Made by a program: the position numbers and the translations under genes. Source: Verrucomicrobiia bacterium (GTDB taxonomy: Bacteria; Verrucomicrobiota; Verrucomicrobiia; Verrucomicrobiales; DEV007). Taken from it: a DNA stretch of 64,000 bases. The notes under the pieces are model-generated. The model was not told the origin of the DNA. It ran no database searches and worked only from the letters and a program-made list of their open reading frames with translations. Numbering within the stretch: position 1 is the stretch's first letter; every line of letters starts with the position of its first letter. The stretch spans positions 124,001 to 188,000 of the forward strand of contig JAUICH010000008.1 in NCBI GenBank assembly GCA_030427505.1, in the 5' to 3' direction. This document shows, piece after piece, positions 25,699 through 35,557 of the stretch.

Positions 25699-26700
25699 AT
25701 GTTTCAGAAGTTCTGCTCTTCATCGTGTCAGCGTTGCGCAACCCGGGGCCGGTTTCTACGGGCGGGAGGCTTGGTTTCTCTGGTTTTCTTGTCGCTCTCC
25801 GTTCTGACAGGCTGTCAACAAGGAGGCGAAGAAGAAGCTGGAGCCGGCGGCCCGCTCTCTGTTGTGGCCACCACCACGATGATCTCGGATATGGTCGCGG
25901 AAGTCGGCGGCGATAAGATCCAGGTCTTTTCCATGATGGGTCCGGGAGTTGATCCGCACCTATACAAGCCGACCGCCTCCGATATCGGTCACCTGAAGGA
26001 TGCCGATGTTATCTTTTACAACGGCCTCTTCCTGGAAGGGCGCATGGCGGAATTGTTTGACCGGCTCAAACAGGAAGGCAAACCGGTTCACGCCGTTTCG
26101 GATAAGCTCCCGGAAGAGCAACTCCTGAATCCGGCGCAATTCCATGGTCATCCGGACCCCCACATTTGGGGCGATGCCGGTCTGTGGGCCACCACGGTCA
26201 GCGTCGTGGTAGAGGGACTGTCGAAGGCGGATCCCGAGAACGCCGCTCACTATGAGGCACAGGGAAACGTGGTTCGCGAAAAATACCAGGCGCTCCACGA
26301 ATGGGCCCTGAAGAAAACCGCGGAACTACCCAAGGAAAAGCGCGTCCTGGTGACCAGCCACGACGCCTTTAACTACCTGGGCCGGGCCTATGGCTTTGAA
26401 GTGGTGGGCGTCCAGGGCATTTCCACCGTCAGCGAGGCGGGCTTGGCGGACCTGGCCCGGACGGTGGACTTCATCAAGCAGCGGAAAGTAAAAGCCATCT
26501 TTGTGGAGTCCAGCGTGCCCCGTGCCACCATCGAACGCATCAGTAAAGACTCCGGCGCCGTGGTGGGTGGAGAGCTTTTTTCCGACGCCATGGGTACGCC
26601 CGGTGAACTGGAAGACATCGGCGGCGAACAGATCGACCTCGGAACGTATGAAGGGATGCTCAAGCACAACCTGAACACCGCCGTGGAAGCCCTGAAGTGA
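25699..26700 (+). CDS. Metal ABC transporter substrate-binding lipoprotein (TroA/MntA type)
   Basis: A 333-residue cluster A-I binding protein. A signal peptide ends in the lipobox LTGC with Cys39 as anchor. Metal ligands fit His87 (DPHLY), His155 (DPHIW), His221 (TSHDAF) and Asp296 (FSDAMG). A His rather than Glu at the third position is as in TroA and ZnuA, so zinc binding is possible, but the MntR control and gene order troABCD favour manganese. The start has no clear ribosome site. It heads a four-gene operon with an ATPase and two permeases. Confidence 0.92.
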   Translation: MFQKFCSSSCQRCATRGRFLRAGGLVSLVFLSLSVLTGCQQGGEEEAGAGGPLSVVATTTMISDMVAEVGGDKIQVFSMMGPGVDPHLYKPTASDIGHLKDADVIFYNGLFLEGRMAELFDRLKQEGKPVHAVSDKLPEEQLLNPAQFHGHPDPHIWGDAGLWATTVSVVVEGLSKADPENAAHYEAQGNVVREKYQALHEWALKKTAELPKEKRVLVTSHDAFNYLGRAYGFEVVGVQGISTVSEAGLADLARTVDFIKQRKVKAIFVESSVPRATIERISKDSGAVVGGELFSDAMGTPGELEDIGGEQIDLGTYEGMLKHNLNTAVEALK

Positions 26701-26739
26701 GCGGCCCGGACTGTGCTATGCTCTAACGGACAGAGGAAC

Positions 26740-27519
26740 ATGGAAACTACCGCGCCAGCCCTGGAGACCCACGACCTGAGCGTGGCCTACCAGAAGAAAC
26801 CCGTCCTCTACGGCGTGGACCTGGAGATTCCCGAAGGGAAACTGGTGGGAATTGTGGGGCCGAACGGAGCGGGCAAATCGACCCTCATCAAAGCCATAAT
26901 GGGCCTGCTGCCCCTGCGCAGCGGCTGGGTGAAGGTCTTTGGTCAGCCTTTCGCGAAAGCGAAGCGCCGGGTGGGCTATGTGCCGCAGCGGGAGTCCGTG
27001 GACTGGGACTTTCCGGTGAACGTCATGGACGTGGTGTTGATGGGCCGCTATGGACACCTGGGCTGGATCAAGCGGCCATCAGCAGCCGATCGCGAGATCG
27101 CGCGCAACTGTCTGGACCAAGTGAACCTGCTGCCCTACGCGAACCGGCAGATTTCGAACTTGAGCGGCGGGCAGCAGCAGCGCGTTTTCCTGGCGCGGGC
27201 GCTGGCGCAAGAGAGCGATCTTTACCTGATGGACGAGCCCTTCGCCGGGGTGGATGCCGCCACGGAGGCCGCCATCATTGTTTTGCTCAAGGAACTGAAG
27301 GCCAGGGGAAAGACCATCCTGGTGGTGCACCACGACCTGACCACGGCGAAGGACTATTTTGACATGCTGGTGCTGCTGAACATGCGGGTCGTCGACTATG
27401 GAGACACCGCGGATGTGTTCACGGTGGAGAAGCTGCAGAAAACCTACGGCGGCCGCCTGACCCTGCTTAGCGACGTAACCCGGCAGGAGGCCAGGCAAAA
27501 AGCAGGAGAGGAAGTCTAG
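26740..27519 (+). CDS. Metal ABC transporter ATP-binding protein
   Basis: A 259-residue ATPase of the Mn/Zn family from ATG 26740. Walker A is GPNGAGKST, the Q-loop lies in VGYVPQRESVDWDFPVNVMDVVLMGRYGHLGW, the ABC signature is LSGGQQQR, Walker B is LYLMDEPFAGVD, and the switch His is in VVHHDL. It powers import of the metal delivered by the upstream binding protein. The next gene starts eight bases after its stop. Confidence 0.94.
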   Translation: METTAPALETHDLSVAYQKKPVLYGVDLEIPEGKLVGIVGPNGAGKSTLIKAIMGLLPLRSGWVKVFGQPFAKAKRRVGYVPQRESVDWDFPVNVMDVVLMGRYGHLGWIKRPSAADREIARNCLDQVNLLPYANRQISNLSGGQQQRVFLARALAQESDLYLMDEPFAGVDAATEAAIIVLLKELKARGKTILVVHHDLTTAKDYFDMLVLLNMRVVDYGDTADVFTVEKLQKTYGGRLTLLSDVTRQEARQKAGEEV

Positions 27520-27527
27520 GTATCAGA

Positions 27528-29030
27528 ATGAGTACAAGACTGACACCTTCCCGCTCTGTCCGGTGGCAGTCCACCGCCGGACTGGCGGTGGTGGTGTGGC
27601 TTGCGCTATTTGCCGTCACGCCCGCCGCGTGGGCGGACCGCATTGGAGACATCCAGGAGACGTCCGTCTGGGAGCAGGCGGGCCGTTTCTTCACCTTTCG
27701 GGACCCCGGCTTGCGCCTGGCGCTGGCGGGCTGCCTGCTACTGGGGCTGAGCTGTGGGCTGCTCGGCGGCTTTGTCGTGGTGCGAAAGATGGCGCTGGTG
27801 GGCGACACCCTTTCCCACGCCGTGCTGCCCGGCATTGCGCTGGGCTTCCTGTGGAACATGACGAAGGACCCCGTGGCCATCCTGGCCGGGGCTACTTTGG
27901 TGGGTTTGTTAGGAGTGATGGTGGTGGACTGGATCACCCGTACCACCACGCTCCAGCAGGATGCCGCGCTGGGGCTGGTGCTGTCCGCCTTTTACGGCGT
28001 GGGCATCTGCCTCGTCACCCGCATTCAGCGGCTGCCCACGGGGAACAAGAGCGGGATCGACAAGTTCATGTTTGGCCAGGCCGCGGCCTTGGGGGAGGAC
28101 GACATCGTGCTCATGCTGGTGACGACGCTGGTGACGGTGGCCTTGATCGTGTTGTTTTATCGCGGGCTGCTGGTGCTGAGTTTCAATCGCGAATTTGGCG
28201 AAGCCATGGGGTTGCCCATGAAGCTGCTCCACCACCTGCTCATGTTGCTGACTGCTTTTGCCATTGTGGTGGCCATGCAGGCCGTGGGGGTGGTACTGGT
28301 ATCAGCTATGCTGGTGATCCCGGCGGCCAGCGCGTATTTGATGACGGACCGGATGCATCGTCTGCTCTTGCTGGCGGCGCTCATCGGAATGGGGTCCGCG
28401 GCGCTGGGGGCATTCTTTTCCTTTCTGGGACACAACTTGCCGACGGGGCCTTTCATGGTCCTGGCGGGCACGGTGGTCTTCATCGGCAGTTTTCTGTTCA
28501 GTCCCCGCTATGGCTGGCTGACGCGGCTCTGGCGGCAGCACTCCCGGCGGTTGCGGACAGAACTGGAAAACACCCTGAAAGCCATGTACCGCGTCCAAGA
28601 AGATCGCGATTTTCACGGAGAAGGCGTGTCCGTCCTGGAGCTGGCGGAACGGAGGAAAGAAACCGTGGAAGAGATCCAGGCCCGGGTGAAAAACCTGCGG
28701 AGCGCCGGGCTTGCCACCCTGACCGAGGAAGGGCGCATGATTCATTTCACCCCGGAGGGATACCGTCAGGCCTGTCTCATCGTGCGCAACCACCGGCTCT
28801 GGGAGCTTTATCTCACCAACGTCGCGCACTTTGCGGCCGATCACGTTCACGCCGAAGCCGAGGAAGTAGAGCACGTCCTGGGCGAGGACACCGTGCGCCA
28901 ACTGGAGCGCCGCCTGAAATTCCCCCGCCAGGACCCTCACGGGAAACCCATTCCCAGCTTACGCGACATGGTGGGCACATCCGCGGAGGAGGAACTCCAA
29001 CGGGGCACGGAAACTCTCGGCTATAGGTGA
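27528..29030 (+). CDS. Metal ABC permease fused to a DtxR-type regulator domain
   Basis: A 500-residue fusion. Residues about 60-335 form a TroC/ZnuB-type permease with eight or so transmembrane segments (RKMALVGDTLSHAVLPGIALG; AMQAVGVVLVSAMLVIPAASAYL). An N-terminal hydrophobic segment ends in AWADR, a possible signal peptide. After a basic link (RQHSRRLRTELENTLKAMYRV) residues about 345-500 form a DtxR-like wHTH plus dimer/metal domain, with NHRLWELYLTN, HVHAEAEEVEHVL and the DPHGKPIPS motif of DtxR proteins. The domain would face the cytoplasm. Whether it binds DNA, or senses metal to control transport, cannot be told. The second ATPase partner is absent; the two permeases likely pair. Confidence 0.88.
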   Translation: MSTRLTPSRSVRWQSTAGLAVVVWLALFAVTPAAWADRIGDIQETSVWEQAGRFFTFRDPGLRLALAGCLLLGLSCGLLGGFVVVRKMALVGDTLSHAVLPGIALGFLWNMTKDPVAILAGATLVGLLGVMVVDWITRTTTLQQDAALGLVLSAFYGVGICLVTRIQRLPTGNKSGIDKFMFGQAAALGEDDIVLMLVTTLVTVALIVLFYRGLLVLSFNREFGEAMGLPMKLLHHLLMLLTAFAIVVAMQAVGVVLVSAMLVIPAASAYLMTDRMHRLLLLAALIGMGSAALGAFFSFLGHNLPTGPFMVLAGTVVFIGSFLFSPRYGWLTRLWRQHSRRLRTELENTLKAMYRVQEDRDFHGEGVSVLELAERRKETVEEIQARVKNLRSAGLATLTEEGRMIHFTPEGYRQACLIVRNHRLWELYLTNVAHFAADHVHAEAEEVEHVLGEDTVRQLERRLKFPRQDPHGKPIPSLRDMVGTSAEEELQRGTETLGYR

Positions 29031-29052
29031 CCCGAGTCAGGAGATTTGAACT

Positions 29053-30057
29053 ATGGAATCGCTGATCCCTCCGTTTGATGCCTACGCCGTGTTCGTGGAG
29101 CCGTGGACGCGTGACCTGGGATTGACCCTGCCCATCGTGCTGATGGGTTTCTTCGTGACCGCCGCCTGCGGCCTGATTGGAAACTACCTTATCCTGCGCC
29201 GCCTGGCGCTGGTGGGGGATGCCATCAGCCACTCCGTGCTGCCGGGTCTGGTGGTGGCGTTTCTCTTTTCCGGTTCCCTGCAGATCGGGGCCATGTTCGT
29301 GGGCGCGGTGGTGGCCGGCGTGCTCACCACCCTCCTCATCGAGCTCATCCACACGCGCAGCCGGGTCAAGACTGATGCCGCCATCGGCATCACGTTTTGC
29401 AGCCTCTTCGCGATCGGCGTCATCATGATCAATGCCTTCGCCGGTCAAGTGCACCTGGACACGGAGTGCGTGCTGTATGGGGAAATTGGCTACGTACCCC
29501 TGGAAGAAACCGTGTCGCTATTTGGAGGACGGTTGAATCTGGGGCCCGCTCCCGTTGTCACCATGGGCGTGGTGTTCGCTCTCGTGGCCGTGCTCGTACT
29601 GCTGTTTTACAAAGAGCTTCTCGTTAGTTCCTTCGACACTACCCTGGCGGCTTCCTTGGGCTTCGCGCCGCGGGTCATTCACTACTGCCTGATGTCTCTC
29701 CTGTCCGTGGTGGTGGTGGCGGCCTTTGAAAGCGTGGGGGCCATCCTGGTCATCGCCACGCTCATTCTTCCGGGAGCCACGGCGCAGATGATATCCACTC
29801 GCCTGCCCATCATCATGGGCCTATCGCTGGCGCACGCGGCGCTCAGCAGTCTTGGCGGGTATCACCTGGCCCGCTGGCTGGACTGCTCCACCGCGGGCGC
29901 CATGGTGGTTGCCGGCGCGGCGCTTTTCACGGCGGCGTGGGTGCTCTCTCCCCGCAGCACCATTCTCAGGAAGTGGAAGACGCGGCTCGGTTTCTTTGCC
30001 GGGGAAGAAGACCCCCAGGAAAAGGCCGCCGCGGCCCCGGCCGCGGCGGGTGACTAA
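29053..30057 (+). CDS. Metal ABC transporter permease (TroD type)
   Basis: A 334-residue permease with eight or so membrane segments, including LRRLALVGDAISHSVLPGLVVA and FESVGAILVIATLILPGATAQMI, the typical coupling and metal-path regions of the Mn/Zn family. It lacks the regulator domain fused to the preceding permease, so the channel is presumably a heterodimer. The C-terminal tail is Ala-rich (KAAAAPAAAGD) and its codons form a perfect 11-bp hairpin. It is the last gene of the Mn-type operon, 22 bases after the fusion gene. Confidence 0.92.
   Translation: MESLIPPFDAYAVFVEPWTRDLGLTLPIVLMGFFVTAACGLIGNYLILRRLALVGDAISHSVLPGLVVAFLFSGSLQIGAMFVGAVVAGVLTTLLIELIHTRSRVKTDAAIGITFCSLFAIGVIMINAFAGQVHLDTECVLYGEIGYVPLEETVSLFGGRLNLGPAPVVTMGVVFALVAVLVLLFYKELLVSSFDTTLAASLGFAPRVIHYCLMSLLSVVVVAAFESVGAILVIATLILPGATAQMISTRLPIIMGLSLAHAALSSLGGYHLARWLDCSTAGAMVVAGAALFTAAWVLSPRSTILRKWKTRLGFFAGEEDPQEKAAAAPAAAGD
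30026..30049 (+). terminator. Perfect GC hairpin inside the 3' end of the permease gene
   Basis: CCGCCGCGGCC (30026-30036), CC, GGCCGCGGCGG (30039-30049) is an 11-bp perfect inverted repeat lying just before the stop and encoding the Ala-rich tail. There is no T-run, so it may stop transcription poorly or protect the mRNA 3' end. Confidence 0.5.
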
Positions 30058-30702: not shown

Positions 30703-30920
30703 GATGAGTCGAGTGGGATGAGTTGTGAAAGTAGAGCGCGGCCAATGTAGAGAGCCACGCTGGATTCGCCAGTGCGCGCACGGGAAAAACAAGTACTTTC
30801 AGCCTTGCTGCCTATCTTAAATACTATAAATTTAATAAAAATTTAGAAAATTAGCACAAAATACTTGCATCTGTAACGCTTGTTTGTTGTAATAGCAATG
30901 ACGACACAACAGCTTATCTA

Positions 30921-32279
30921 ATGCATCATAGCTCATTACTACCTGCCATGGCCGCTGGCGCGGCGTTCTTCCTTTTCTCAGCGACCCTTCCGTCAGCTCT
31001 AGCCGGAGAGGAGACTCCTCCACTCGCGGATCCGGCGCTGAGCGAGTCCGAAACGGCGAATGCGGTTGACTGGTTGACGGGCTCGGGTGTCAGTCTCGGC
31101 GGCTTCCTGTTTCCTCACCTGCATGCTTTTGGCGCATTTGGCGGCACCACGGGCGATGCCGCGGAGATGGCGGTGGGGCACCACGATCCGAGCCGGAATG
31201 CCATGCTTCAGTCCCTGGAGCCTTCGTTGTCGCTACGTTACGGCGACTATCTGGAGGGTTTCGCCACCTATTCGTTTCACACGACCGAAGGAGGCGATTT
31301 GGACGGCGACCTGGAGGAAGCCTTTCTCAAACTGAAGGATCTGCCATTTGGATTGGAACTGCGCGGCGGCCAGTTTCTGAACCGATTTGGTTTCCAGAAC
31401 GCGGTGCATAACCACGGCTGGATGTTCGTGGATCAGAACCTGGTGAATGGCCGCATTCTCCAGGAGGGCGAATTGATGACCATGGGTGGTGAAGTGACGT
31501 GGATGATCCCGACGCCTTGGGTGTCCGCGCTCTCCATTTCCGCTGGAGGCTTACCGGAACACGACCACGATCATGAGCACGGACACGGTGAAGAGGCTGA
31601 GTTCGAAGGCGAAGGGGCCAACTACGACGCCTACCTCATTGGGCTGAACTACCTGGCGAAGTACGACTACAACGACTTCAATCAATTCAGCGGCACCTTC
31701 TCCGGCGCCTGGGGCGAAAACGAGTTTGGCCGGAACACGAGTATCTACGGCATTGGCTTCGAGTATCTGTGGCGGGAAAACGGCTACGAACCCGGTGGCC
31801 GCTCCCTGCGCTGGCGCACCGAAGCCATGCTCCGCCACATAGAGGCGGTGTCCGGCGAACTGCACGAGCATGAGCACGGCGACGACCACGAACATGAAGA
31901 AGAGCACGAGCACGGCGAGGAAGATCACGACGACCACGACGAGCATGGGGAAGAGCACCATGAGGACGAAGATCACGAACACGAAGATGAGGAGCGCCAT
32001 TATGCGAACTTCGATGAGTTCGGTTTCTCCACTTCGTTGATCTACGGCTTCAACGATTTCGTGGAAACCGGGGTCCGGGCCGGCTGGGTGTCCGGCATCC
32101 GGGACATGGGTCTGGACGACCGCTGGCGGGTTTCTCCCATGGTCACCTGCTACCTGAACCGCGAACGGACGGTCCTGTTCCGGCTTCAGTACAACTACGA
32201 CCAGAGCAACGACTTTGGCGGCGAGCACTCCGTGTGGGCACAGATCGGTATCAACTGGGGCGGCCCGGAAGTTCGCTGA
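30921..32279 (+). CDS. His-rich outer-membrane barrel protein, probable zinc-linked porin
   Basis: A 452-residue exported protein. The signal peptide ends near SALAGEE; ATG 30948 is an alternative start. The rest looks like a beta-barrel: paired aromatic strands (SLRYGDYLEGFATYSFHTT, SVWAQIGINWG) and a porin-like end. Two His/Asp/Glu-rich insertions stand out, a shorter one at about 31558-31620 and a longer one at about 31861-32000, both probably surface or periplasmic loops able to bind Zn(II). No TonB box or plug domain is evident, so it may be a metal-responsive porin. It heads the zinc-type operon, with an AT-rich upstream region (30810-30920). Confidence 0.75.
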   Translation: MHHSSLLPAMAAGAAFFLFSATLPSALAGEETPPLADPALSESETANAVDWLTGSGVSLGGFLFPHLHAFGAFGGTTGDAAEMAVGHHDPSRNAMLQSLEPSLSLRYGDYLEGFATYSFHTTEGGDLDGDLEEAFLKLKDLPFGLELRGGQFLNRFGFQNAVHNHGWMFVDQNLVNGRILQEGELMTMGGEVTWMIPTPWVSALSISAGGLPEHDHDHEHGHGEEAEFEGEGANYDAYLIGLNYLAKYDYNDFNQFSGTFSGAWGENEFGRNTSIYGIGFEYLWRENGYEPGGRSLRWRTEAMLRHIEAVSGELHEHEHGDDHEHEEEHEHGEEDHDDHDEHGEEHHEDEDHEHEDEERHYANFDEFGFSTSLIYGFNDFVETGVRAGWVSGIRDMGLDDRWRVSPMVTCYLNRERTVLFRLQYNYDQSNDFGGEHSVWAQIGINWGGPEVR

Positions 32280-32335
32280 ATGGTCCTGACAAAGCCACCT
32301 AAAACTAATAATACCAACTTCATCGCGAGACGAAA

Positions 32336-33271
32336 ATGAAGACGCAACCGAAGATCAAATCGCGGGGAGGCCTTTTCTTGGCGCTCTCATTTGCCCTGGT
32401 CCTGCTGGCCGGGGGAGCCGGACGGGCGGCCGCGGAAATGAAAGTGGTCACCCTGCATCCCATGATTACCGACTTGGCCCGCCAGGTGGGTGGTGACGAT
32501 GTGCAGGTGACCGGTCTGATGAAGCCGGGAGACGATCCGCACCACTTCGAGCCGAATTCCGAAGGAATGAGCCAGATTCATTCCGCCCGCCTGGTGCTGG
32601 CTTCAGGAAAGGGACTGGAGCCTTACCTGAGCAAGCTGAACGATTCCCTCGGAACCGGGGGAGAAATCGTGGAGGTTGGCCGCCTGGTGCCGTCCATCAA
32701 GATCGAAGCCGATGCCGTCTTTGTCTGCTGCCCCGCTCACAGCGCCGGGGCGCTGGACCCGCACTGGTGGCACAGCATCAAGAACATGGAGCGTGCCGCG
32801 GGCATCGTGGCCGATGAATTCGCCAAGGCCGATCCCTCCCACGCCGGCGCCTACGCCGCCCGGGCCAAGGCCTACAAGAGCAGGCTGAGCGATCTCTATA
32901 TCTGGGCAAAGAAAGAAATCTCCCGCATTCCGCGCAATGACCGGGAACTGGCTACCTCTCACGCTGCCTTCGGTTACTTCTGCAAAGAGTTCGGCTTCAA
33001 GTCCGTGCCAGTGCAGGGCCTGGGCCGGGAGAGTGAAGTGTCGTCTCAATACCTGGAAGAGACTGCCAACGCCATTCGGAAGTATGAGATAAAGGCGGTG
33101 TTTCCCGAGCGCCTGGCGAATCCCAAGCCGTTGGAGACCGTCACTCGCACCACGGGCGTTAGAGTGGCGGAACCCCTCATCGCCGATGGCTCCGCCGCCG
33201 GGGTGGAGACCTATGAGGCCTTTATGCGTCACAATGTGAGTGTGATTGTGGATGCCCTGGCGGGTTCCTGA
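32336..33271 (+). CDS. znuA: Zinc ABC transporter substrate-binding protein (ZnuA type)
   Basis: A 311-residue periplasmic binding protein with a Sec signal (cut near GRAAAEMK), not a lipoprotein. Metal ligands fit His69 (DPHHFEP), His143 (DPHWW), His209 (TSHAAF) and Asp284 (IADGS), the three-His-one-Asp set of zinc proteins. It lacks the long acidic His loop of E. coli ZnuA; the His-rich part here may be supplied by the upstream barrel protein. Gene order with an ATPase and permease supports a zinc importer. A zinc site is inferred, not shown. Confidence 0.85.
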   Translation: MKTQPKIKSRGGLFLALSFALVLLAGGAGRAAAEMKVVTLHPMITDLARQVGGDDVQVTGLMKPGDDPHHFEPNSEGMSQIHSARLVLASGKGLEPYLSKLNDSLGTGGEIVEVGRLVPSIKIEADAVFVCCPAHSAGALDPHWWHSIKNMERAAGIVADEFAKADPSHAGAYAARAKAYKSRLSDLYIWAKKEISRIPRNDRELATSHAAFGYFCKEFGFKSVPVQGLGRESEVSSQYLEETANAIRKYEIKAVFPERLANPKPLETVTRTTGVRVAEPLIADGSAAGVETYEAFMRHNVSVIVDALAGS

Positions 33272-33320
33272 GTCCTGGCGATAAGGCTGGCACCCTTTCT
33301 TTTTCACCACAAGACCTCCC

Positions 33321-33791
33321 ATGCGCGGCTTTCCTGTTCTCAGCACCTTGGTTGCGATAGCGTTACTGGCTTTGGCCTGGTGGCCTCTATCCTATGTGAC
33401 GGGGAAGTCGTCGCAGACGGGCGCGGAAAGTGGAACGGATTGCCCGCTTACGCCGCTCCCAACGGCGGCGGAGACTGGCGTGTCCTCTCCAGTGCCGGTG
33501 TTCCTCACGGTGCGTGCCTCTCATGCGCCCTCGAAGCTGACCCTCGTCTTAGACGGCGAAAACGAGATCGATCTCGCCGAGGGCGCCGATTGGACTGGAG
33601 AGATAACGAAAGAGCTGTCTATTGTTATTCCCACCGAAGGTATTGAGGCCTGGGTGGAAGCCCAGTGGCCGGAGGATGTCGCGAATGTGGCCTTGGCCAT
33701 TTCCCTCACGCCGGAAGCGGGGGAGGAACGGCGCGTGACGCTGTGGTCCGATGGGCCCGAGCTTTCCGATCTGGCGGAGTTTATCTGGTAG
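33321..33791 (+). CDS. Unknown membrane-anchored periplasmic protein in the zinc operon
   Basis: A 156-residue protein with one N-terminal hydrophobic segment (about residues 4-27), which may be an uncleaved anchor or signal. The remainder is hydrophilic and acidic, with beta-rich stretches (PVFLTVRASHAPSKLTLVLDG; VALAISLTPEAGEERRVTLWSDG) that suggest a small beta-sandwich facing the periplasm. It has one Cys near residue 41 and few His, so it is not an obvious metal chaperone. No family is recognised. It lies between znuA and the ATPase genes, with 49 and 39 bases to its neighbours, so it is probably part of the importer operon. Confidence 0.6.
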   Translation: MRGFPVLSTLVAIALLALAWWPLSYVTGKSSQTGAESGTDCPLTPLPTAAETGVSSPVPVFLTVRASHAPSKLTLVLDGENEIDLAEGADWTGEITKELSIVIPTEGIEAWVEAQWPEDVANVALAISLTPEAGEERRVTLWSDGPELSDLAEFIW

Positions 33792-33830
33792 GCGCAACTC
33801 TTACGATTTTCCCACCTTCAAACACTGGTC

Positions 33831-34640
33831 ATGACTATCGATCTCAATCAGCAAGCCTGTGGCGAACCCCAGGGACACGAGTTGACCATCCGTGGATTGT
33901 CCGTGCGTTATGGAACGAACCTGGCGCTGGAGGACGTGCACCTTACCCTCCGCTGCGGGCGCTGCGCGGGGCTGATTGGTCCCAATGGAGCGGGAAAGAG
34001 TACCTTGATGAAGTCTCTCTCAGGGTTGGTCAAACCCATTGCGGGTCAGATTTCGTGGCGCGAGACTACATTGGGTAGAGGCAGTTCCGAGATTGCTTAC
34101 CTGGCCCAGCGGGAAGAGGTGGACTGGAATTTTCCCCTCACGGTACGCGGCTTGGTCGAGATGGGGCGCTACCCGCACCTCGGCTGGTGGCGTGCCTACC
34201 GGAAGCGCGACGCCGAAGTGGTGGATGCCGCGCTGGAAGCCATGCGCCTGAGCGACTTGGCGGGCCGCCAGATCTGCGCTTTGTCTGGCGGACAACAGCA
34301 GCGAGCTTTCCTCGCTCGCGCCTTGGCGCAGGAGGCGCACATCCTTCTCCTGGACGAACCCTTTACCGGCCTGGACGAGCCCGCGCAGGAATTGCTCTCC
34401 GAACTCCTGAACCAACTGGCCGCCGAGGGCCGTCTGGTCATTGCCTCACATCACGACCTCGACTCCGTGCCCACTATTTTTGATGAAGTGGTACTACTGA
34501 ACCGCCGCGTGGTGGCGGCGGGTCCGGTGGATCAGATCTACACGCCGGAAAACTTGAGCCGTTGCTTTCAGAGCGAGGCAAAACGTCTTTCAACTTCTAA
34601 AGTGGAGGGTGAGTCTGCAAGCCCTTCCTTTGCCGCATAA
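33831..34640 (+). CDS. znuC: Zinc ABC transporter ATP-binding protein
   Basis: A 269-residue ATPase. Walker A is GPNGAGKST, Q-loop region LAQREEVDWNFPLTVRGLVEMGRYPHLGWW, signature LSGGQQQR, Walker B ILLLDEPFTGLD, switch SHHDLD. It closely parallels the ATPase at 26740, suggesting the two importers arose by duplication or are sister families. It pairs with the permease 38 bases downstream. Its place after znuA and the unknown protein points to zinc. Confidence 0.9.
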   Translation: MTIDLNQQACGEPQGHELTIRGLSVRYGTNLALEDVHLTLRCGRCAGLIGPNGAGKSTLMKSLSGLVKPIAGQISWRETTLGRGSSEIAYLAQREEVDWNFPLTVRGLVEMGRYPHLGWWRAYRKRDAEVVDAALEAMRLSDLAGRQICALSGGQQQRAFLARALAQEAHILLLDEPFTGLDEPAQELLSELLNQLAAEGRLVIASHHDLDSVPTIFDEVVLLNRRVVAAGPVDQIYTPENLSRCFQSEAKRLSTSKVEGESASPSFAA

Positions 34641-34678
34641 CCTGTTAGTCAGGATTCAACCCGCTTCCGTTTTCGACC

Positions 34679-35557
34679 ATGGACTGGCTCCTCGAACCCA
34701 TACAGATTCCCCACATGCAGCGTGCCCTTCTGGTAGGCCTGCTGGCGGGTTTTGCCAATGGCTACGTCAGCGCCTTTGTGGTGCTGAAGAAGTCTGCCCT
34801 TATGGTTGGCTCCCTGTCACATAGCCTGCTGCCTGGCATCGCCATCGGAGTGCTGGTGGCGGGTCTGACGCCGGCCAGTGCTTTCATTGGCGCGCTGGTG
34901 GCGGGCCTGATCGTGGGTCTTGGTTCGTTGCTGCTATCGCGCGCGTCCCGCCTGGGGCACGAGACCGCTCTCGCCATTCTCTACACCTGCGCTTTTGCCG
35001 CTGGTGTGCTGCTCCTGAGCCGGGTGGGGGACAATGTGGACTTGAACCAGTATCTCTTGGGGAACATCCTTTTCGCTTCCGATGCGGACGTCGTGACCGT
35101 CTTCTGGGTCAGCGCCATCGCCATCACCGCCCTGACCGCCCTGCGCCGGCCCATCATCGTCAGCTTGTTCGAGCCCTCCGCCGCACAGGCCCTGGGGATC
35201 CCGGTCCGCTGGCTGAACCTCTTGCTCTTTGGACTGCTCATCTTGGTCCTCATTTCCACTCTTCAGGCCGTCGGCTGCATTCTGGCCATCGGCCTCATGG
35301 TCACGCCCGCCGCCACGGTCTATCTGCTGACGGACAACACGAACGCGCTTTTCTGGGGAGGAGGTCTGCTCGGCGCGGTGGGTTCCGTCACCGCGTTGCT
35401 GGTGGCCCATCATTTCAATCTCGGCCCCAGTACGTCCATCGTGCTGACGTTGGGGATCTTCTTTGCCTTGGCCTACGTGTTGAGTCCGAAGTATGGCCTG
35501 GCCCGGCATTTGAGAGGGCGAAGCGCGACGAGCCGGGCGGCGGTTCCCACGCCGTGA
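34679..35557 (+). CDS. znuB: Zinc ABC transporter permease
   Basis: A 292-residue permease with about nine hydrophobic segments, including LKKSALMVGSLSHSLLPGIAIG, the usual coupling region, and ALGIPVRWLNLLLFGLLILVL. Unlike the first importer there is only one permease gene, so it would act as a homodimer. It closes the zinc-type operon. The next gene (DUF72) begins 90 bases later after a separate-looking gap. Confidence 0.9.
   Translation: MDWLLEPIQIPHMQRALLVGLLAGFANGYVSAFVVLKKSALMVGSLSHSLLPGIAIGVLVAGLTPASAFIGALVAGLIVGLGSLLLSRASRLGHETALAILYTCAFAAGVLLLSRVGDNVDLNQYLLGNILFASDADVVTVFWVSAIAITALTALRRPIIVSLFEPSAAQALGIPVRWLNLLLFGLLILVLISTLQAVGCILAIGLMVTPAATVYLLTDNTNALFWGGGLLGAVGSVTALLVAHHFNLGPSTSIVLTLGIFFALAYVLSPKYGLARHLRGRSATSRAAVPTP

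Follow-up and report, generated by a model that had tools for sequence, protein, structure and literature searches.

A five-gene operon in a Verrucomicrobiota genome probably encodes a Zur-repressed zinc import system that covers the whole route from the outer membrane to the cytoplasm. The operon lies in a 64,000-nucleotide stretch of contig JAUICH010000008.1 (the window, from the first nucleotide of which all positions are counted), in a host genome of 6.4 Mb in 56 contigs whose named relatives are Verrucomicrobiota. The evidence was obtained by computation and consists of the gene order, the predicted porin fold of the leading barrel, its conserved residues, the operator with its other targets, and the co-occurrence of the barrel with a CCPxH loop in the zinc-binding protein ZnuA. 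A first-pass annotation of the window had already proposed a complete zinc route; the persistence of the gene order across classes, a Zur-type operator and the HHH-D ligand pattern of ZnuA support this interpretation.

The gene set named by the first-pass annotation is confirmed: barrel, znuA, a gene for a 156-aa protein, znuC and znuB are five open frames, and ZnuA, ZnuC and ZnuB match Pfam and NCBIfam families (Table 1). A PF01297 substrate-binding protein (SBP), an ABC ATPase and a PF00950 permease, which together define a ZnuABC-type importer, are all encoded in the operon. A second metal ABC operon is located just upstream (25699-30057) and encodes a binding protein, an ATPase and two permeases, one of which is fused to a DtxR/MntR-type domain (27528-29030, 500 aa). 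No Zur-type box was found before this upstream operon.

Table 1. Features of the zinc operon and its promoter region (window positions; aa, amino acids).
Feature	Position	Strand	Description
Five-gene operon	30921-35557	+	barrel, znuA, 156-aa gene, znuC, znuB; all open frames
Barrel, outer-membrane porin	30921-32279	+	452 aa; apparent signal peptide; 16 strands, plug-less; proposed zinc channel
Loop L1 HHDP motif, residues 87-90	31179-31190	+	extracellular; H88 and D89 invariant in 37 homologues
Loop L3, residues 154-185	31380-31475	+	near-invariant H163-x-H165; invariant R178
Loop L4, residues 211-234	31551-31622	+	extracellular; 5 His, 9 Asp/Glu
Loop L6, residues 312-359	31854-31997	+	extracellular; 14 His, 28 Asp/Glu; only in part of the family
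znuA, periplasmic zinc-binding protein	32336-33271	+	cluster A-I; Pfam ZnuA E-value 1.4e-65; HHH-D pattern
CCPAH, ZnuA residues 131-135	32726-32740	+	just 5' of DPHWWH, at the position of the His-rich loop of other ZnuA
156-aa anchored accessory protein gene	33321-33791	+	transmembrane helix and beta-sandwich; new family
znuC, ABC ATPase	33831-34640	+	ABC_tran match
znuB, ABC-3 permease	34679-35557	+	ABC-3 E-value 1.1e-48
Predicted Zur operator TAGCACAAAATACTTGCATCT	30852-30872		degenerate palindrome copy; PWM score 14.8, best in the 64-kb window
Weaker palindrome match	30874-30894		PWM score 6.8

Relatives of the barrel are present in 56 of 96 related genomes, and relatives of the 156-aa protein in 46 of the same 96. 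We examined the gene context in 60 loci from relatives, 66 named contigs and 40 further loci of the phylum, the profile scan of contigs for barrels being based on a set of 14 sequences. Barrel-znuA-156-aa-znuC-znuB is the commonest order in the Verrucomicrobiota loci examined; in variants, the barrel is located 3' of znuB, or a barrel-znuA pair is separated from 156-aa-znuC-znuB. Usable flanks were available for 101 distinct barrel genes, of which 84 have a metal-ABC gene within 5 kb, and genes for ZnuA-, ZnuC- and ZnuB-like proteins also follow very distant barrels (E-value about 1e-20) in other classes. The comparison of gene order that the first-pass annotation had suggested thus finds conservation at the level of family, order and phylum, in several classes. 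Genomes that we call Akkermansia-type, a working label given by kinship, retain the 156-aa gene and znuABC and lack the barrel. A wider, plasmid-borne spread of the barrel is rejected, since a tblastn search of 72,556 plasmids returned no match (0 matches).

The barrel contains 31 histidines among its 452 residues, clustered in two insertions. An AlphaFold2 model built with 37 family members exhibits a 16-strand barrel without a plug (mean pLDDT 81.5), the fold that characterizes Porin_O_P (PF07396). The nearest solved structures are the porins OprO and OprP (Z 27.6 over about 300 aa, 13% identity; for 2o4v, Z 27.6, 300 aa and rmsd 2.8), followed by general porins at Z about 24. At the sequence level the barrel exhibits no relative above chance in Pfam, NCBIfam or the PDB sequences, and the Porin_O_P profile does not match it at E-values up to 1; a single one of the 37 barrel relatives matches this profile (E-value 0.0022), other Pfam matches of family members being at chance level. 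The barrel thus belongs to no known family at the level of sequence, although its fold is that of known 16-strand porins. A TonB-dependent receptor of the ZnuD type is rejected: the Pfam Plug domain (PF07715) has no match in the barrel, and the model is plug-less and exhibits 16 strands instead of 22.

In porins both termini are periplasmic, and the loop L3 lines the constriction of the 16-strand members. Because of this topology, the two His/Asp/Glu-rich insertions, correctly recognized in the first-pass annotation, are assigned to loops L4 and L6 on the extracellular face, and L3 comprises residues 154-185. L4 carries at least two histidines in 36 of the 37 homologues; at least three are found in L6 of only 20 of these homologues, about half of the family having a short L6 and part of it an L6 free of histidine. 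H88, D89 and E132 are invariant in the 37 homologues, E133, H163 and H165 are conserved in 36, and H436 in 35. Judging from sequence and topology, the HHDP motif of L1, the H-x-H of L3 and the Glu/His residues of the wall are candidates for a selectivity filter. One other locus (L089:4682-7672) has a tandem pair of divergent barrels beside another zinc ABC operon; their L4 loops contain His/Asp repeats that reach 83 aa in length.

The alternative that survives best, which we nevertheless consider unlikely, is that the barrel is a co-regulated general or anion porin of the OprP/OprO type, the His-rich loops of which bind zinc at the surface, as a buffer, in adhesion or as a shield against toxicity, with a channel that is not selective for zinc. 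The nearest fold is indeed that of phosphate and pyrophosphate porins, several arginines are conserved (R148, R155, R178, R386, R401, R403), and L6 is dispensable within the family. However, the invariant H88, D89 and E132 and the near-invariant H163-x-H165 of L3 are unexpected in an anion channel, the linkage of barrel and znuA persists in distant classes, and the CCPxH loop of ZnuA tracks the barrel. These observations favor a zinc channel, which is the reading that we retain for the barrel.

The 156-aa protein exhibits no relative above chance in Pfam, NCBIfam or the PDB sequences, so that the first-pass annotation was right in assigning it to no known family. Its model (pLDDT 86.8) consists of an N-terminal transmembrane helix (residues 5-30) and an eight-strand beta-sandwich (58-154), for which no convincing match was found among PDB folds: the best scores, for a lipoxygenase N-terminal domain (Z 7.8) and MmpS5 (Z 6.4), are within a range of matches common to sandwiches. 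M1, P5, L23 and W142 are invariant in the family, and P131 and W156 are nearly so. The gene is immediately 5' of znuC in all of 64 pairs and overlaps it in 44. The coupling of its gene to znuC and its retention where the barrel is absent suggest that the protein is part of the ABC importer. We tentatively propose a single-span inner-membrane subunit that might dock loaded ZnuA to ZnuBC or stabilize the complex, which seems the best of the possible roles and still a little short of an even chance. A periplasmic zinc chaperone or scavenger, with a role like that of ZinT or AztD, would equally be an anchored periplasmic domain encoded in a zinc operon, and a few homologues (L091, L093, L098) possess a His-rich linker. 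This role appears rather improbable, as the family alignment exhibits no conserved His/Cys/Asp set of metal ligands, coupling of the gene is stronger with znuC than with znuA or the barrel, and the barrel-less Akkermansia-type genomes keep it. The linker stretch, EGEHKH, is located between anchor and sandwich and occurs in one genus (L091:1569-2057, L093:6106-6600, L098:6703-7191).

ZnuA of the operon exhibits, by sequence motif, the HHH-D ligand pattern (DPHHFEP, DPHWWH, SHAAFGYF and a conserved aspartate near the C-terminus), and its nearest NCBIfam model is AztC, below the cut-off of that model. The third ligand is a histidine where manganese-binding proteins have a glutamate. As the first-pass annotation had pointed out, the His-rich loop is absent from this sequence, the short CCPAH loop being found instead; a His-rich loop is common in ZnuA, not universal, and is no requirement for the ZnuABC family. 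We compared 94 DPHWW-type ZnuA sequences. All 70 that come from barrel-containing genomes carry CC[P/A]xH, as against 1 of the 24 from barrel-less genomes, where absence of the barrel is defined by search thresholds in assemblies of varied completeness. On a ZnuA tree constructed without the loop, the presence of the barrel changes about seven times; the informative independent pairs, six in number, all point in the same direction, and the median p is 0.031. The genomes analysed after the motif had been noted follow the same pattern (10 of 10 with the barrel against 1 of 13 without).

Loops with at least four histidines occur in 11 of the 24 barrel-less ZnuA and in 1 of the 70 others, a difference that is not significant in the independent-pairs test (median p 0.25). 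Divergent barrels (G056, G058, G041; genus g2/g16), which fall outside the DPHWW-type ZnuA, coexist with a His-loop ZnuA. A strict rule by which the barrel replaces the His loop is rejected on these two grounds. Of the earlier suggestion that the barrel takes over the role of the His loop, only the association of CC[P/A]xH with the barrel remains, and this part is supported by the sequences; the His-rich loop is found in only some barrel-less ZnuA. In the Akkermansia-type genomes, the ZnuA loops (L094-L099, L109) contain both CCAH, or CSH in one case, and a His-rich stretch, and could be intermediate between the two loop types.

The upstream regions of the operons contain a 21-bp palindrome, TAATGCAATTAAATTGCATTA, with the core form TAATGCAA-N5-TTGCATTA. 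It is present in 72% of 95 distinct operon promoters against about 0.5% of shuffled sequences, an optimistic contrast since these 95 promoters also served to fit the PWM. In loci fetched after the fitting, 9 of 42 operon starts and 8 of 400 control pieces attain a PWM score of at least 12. The nine starts all come from the same order or class, and the operator model extends neither to other classes nor to Akkermansia-type promoters. The window copy is weak (14.8, against 18-27 for most). The palindrome also precedes 11 of 17 barrel genes that have no metal-ABC gene nearby.

A search of eight genomes for the palindrome core identified further targets. These are zigA (COG0523; NCBIfam match above cut-off in three genomes), the gene for the type-B ribosomal protein L31 (L31B) followed by another COG0523 gene and, in one genome (G035), a znuA and a znuC-znuB pair, named by sequence. 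In the host genome itself the palindrome precedes another znuA-znuC pair, the ZnuA of which has a long His loop; this second zinc ABC operon is located at L204:3251-4999 (G000 contig 6, about 725.8-727.6 kb). Paired boxes also occur at two places in a small zinc-shortage island (L196, G003 contig 44), which encodes a HisI paralogue, a 245-aa membrane protein, a 402-aa flavoprotein and ZigA. Among the genes that recur in Zur regulons are those for COG0523 proteins, rpmE2 and ZnuABC (PMC6103462). Since its other targets are zigA, L31B/COG0523 and zinc ABC genes, we read the palindrome as very probably a Zur box and the metal as very probably zinc. The host genome contains three genes of the Fur family.

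Neither ZnuA-type proteins nor ABC-3 permeases are restricted to a single metal, and import of manganese or iron by the operon might be suspected from the best NCBIfam score of ZnuC, which is with the manganese ATPase model MntA, and from the DtxR/MntR-fused permease encoded just upstream, but this is most improbable given the histidine as third ZnuA ligand, the zinc protein AztC as best SBP model, and an operator that also precedes zigA, the L31B gene and other zinc ABC genes, the known signature of a Zur regulon (PMC6103462). The first-pass assignment to zinc is thereby supported over manganese and iron.

From the genes and their conserved residues we infer a zinc route as follows. Under zinc shortage, Zur would leave the operator and the operon would be derepressed. 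The acidic His-rich loops, always L4 and often L6, may concentrate Zn2+ at the surface, from where it would traverse the plug-less porin by facilitated diffusion, passing the putative filter of L1, L3 and wall residues. In the periplasm, Zn2+ would be captured by the HHH-D site of ZnuA, with the CCPxH loop in the place of the His loop, and then pumped to the cytoplasm by ZnuBC. The 156-aa protein, presented to the periplasm as a beta-sandwich and made in step with ZnuC, would act in docking or in stabilization of the complex as proposed above. Because the host genome also encodes four TonB-type Plug proteins and, under the same type of box, the ZnuA with a His loop, zinc could enter the cell by other routes besides this operon.

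A bolder version, which we offer as a doubtful speculation, is a contact-coupled line in which a metal-selective porin would hand Zn2+ in the periplasm to ZnuA via the CCPxH loop, and an obligatory subunit of a new family would dock ZnuA on ZnuBC. The loop would then track the porin because it is the receiving site of the hand-over. We are aware of no earlier report of a porin that, for a bare metal ion, co-evolved with its periplasmic binding protein.

What is known of the passage of bare zinc across the outer membrane comes mainly from TonB-dependent receptors. A literature search, with most subscription journals outside its scope, returned no report of this porin family, the 156-aa family, the Zur box or the CCPxH pairing, and a search on zinc porins and znu operons of Verrucomicrobia returned nothing relevant. 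The operon thus suggests a phylum-wide family of plug-less porins tied to a zinc ABC pump by gene order and operator, with specific candidate residues for the filter. The probable Zur box makes zinc regulons predictable in Verrucomicrobiales, the 156-aa protein adds an accessory family also kept by Akkermansia-type genomes, and the pairing of porin and CCPxH makes the hand-over from an outer-membrane channel to a binding protein testable.

Outer-membrane receptors under zinc control, ZnuD among them, and porins linked to metals (MspD, MnoP, OprD) have been described before. With the ZnuABC/AztABC importers of cluster A-I, the window operon has in common the SBP, the ATPase, the ABC-3 permease, the HHH-D zinc pattern and a Zur-type operator; it differs by the leading porin gene, the 156-aa anchored protein and the short CCPxH in place of the His loop of ZnuA. 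The barrel resembles ZnuD in its proposed zinc role at the outer membrane, its presumed metal-binding surface loops and its probable control by zinc shortage, whereas ZnuD is a TonB-dependent transporter (PMC4557270) and the window barrel has 16 strands and no plug. Pseudomonas OprP/OprO have the same 16-strand plug-less fold; unlike them (about 13% identity), the barrel lacks a Porin_O_P match and conserves metal-type residues. OprD appears in Zur regulons (PMC6103462). Passive outer-membrane channels have been linked to zinc shortage for MspD of Mycobacterium smegmatis (PMC13098993) and to manganese shortage for MnoP of Bradyrhizobium (cited in PMC6011978); MspD is a mycobacterial Msp-family porin, unlike the window barrel, and these sources (PMC13098993, PMC6011978) describe no His-rich-loop porin within a znuABC operon. 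MmpS5 is, like the 156-aa protein, a single-span accessory protein, with a weak structural match. An analogue in layout is ZrgD of the Vibrio cholerae zrgABCDE zinc ABC operon (PMC9820375), a small single-span protein of 101 aa as against 156 aa.
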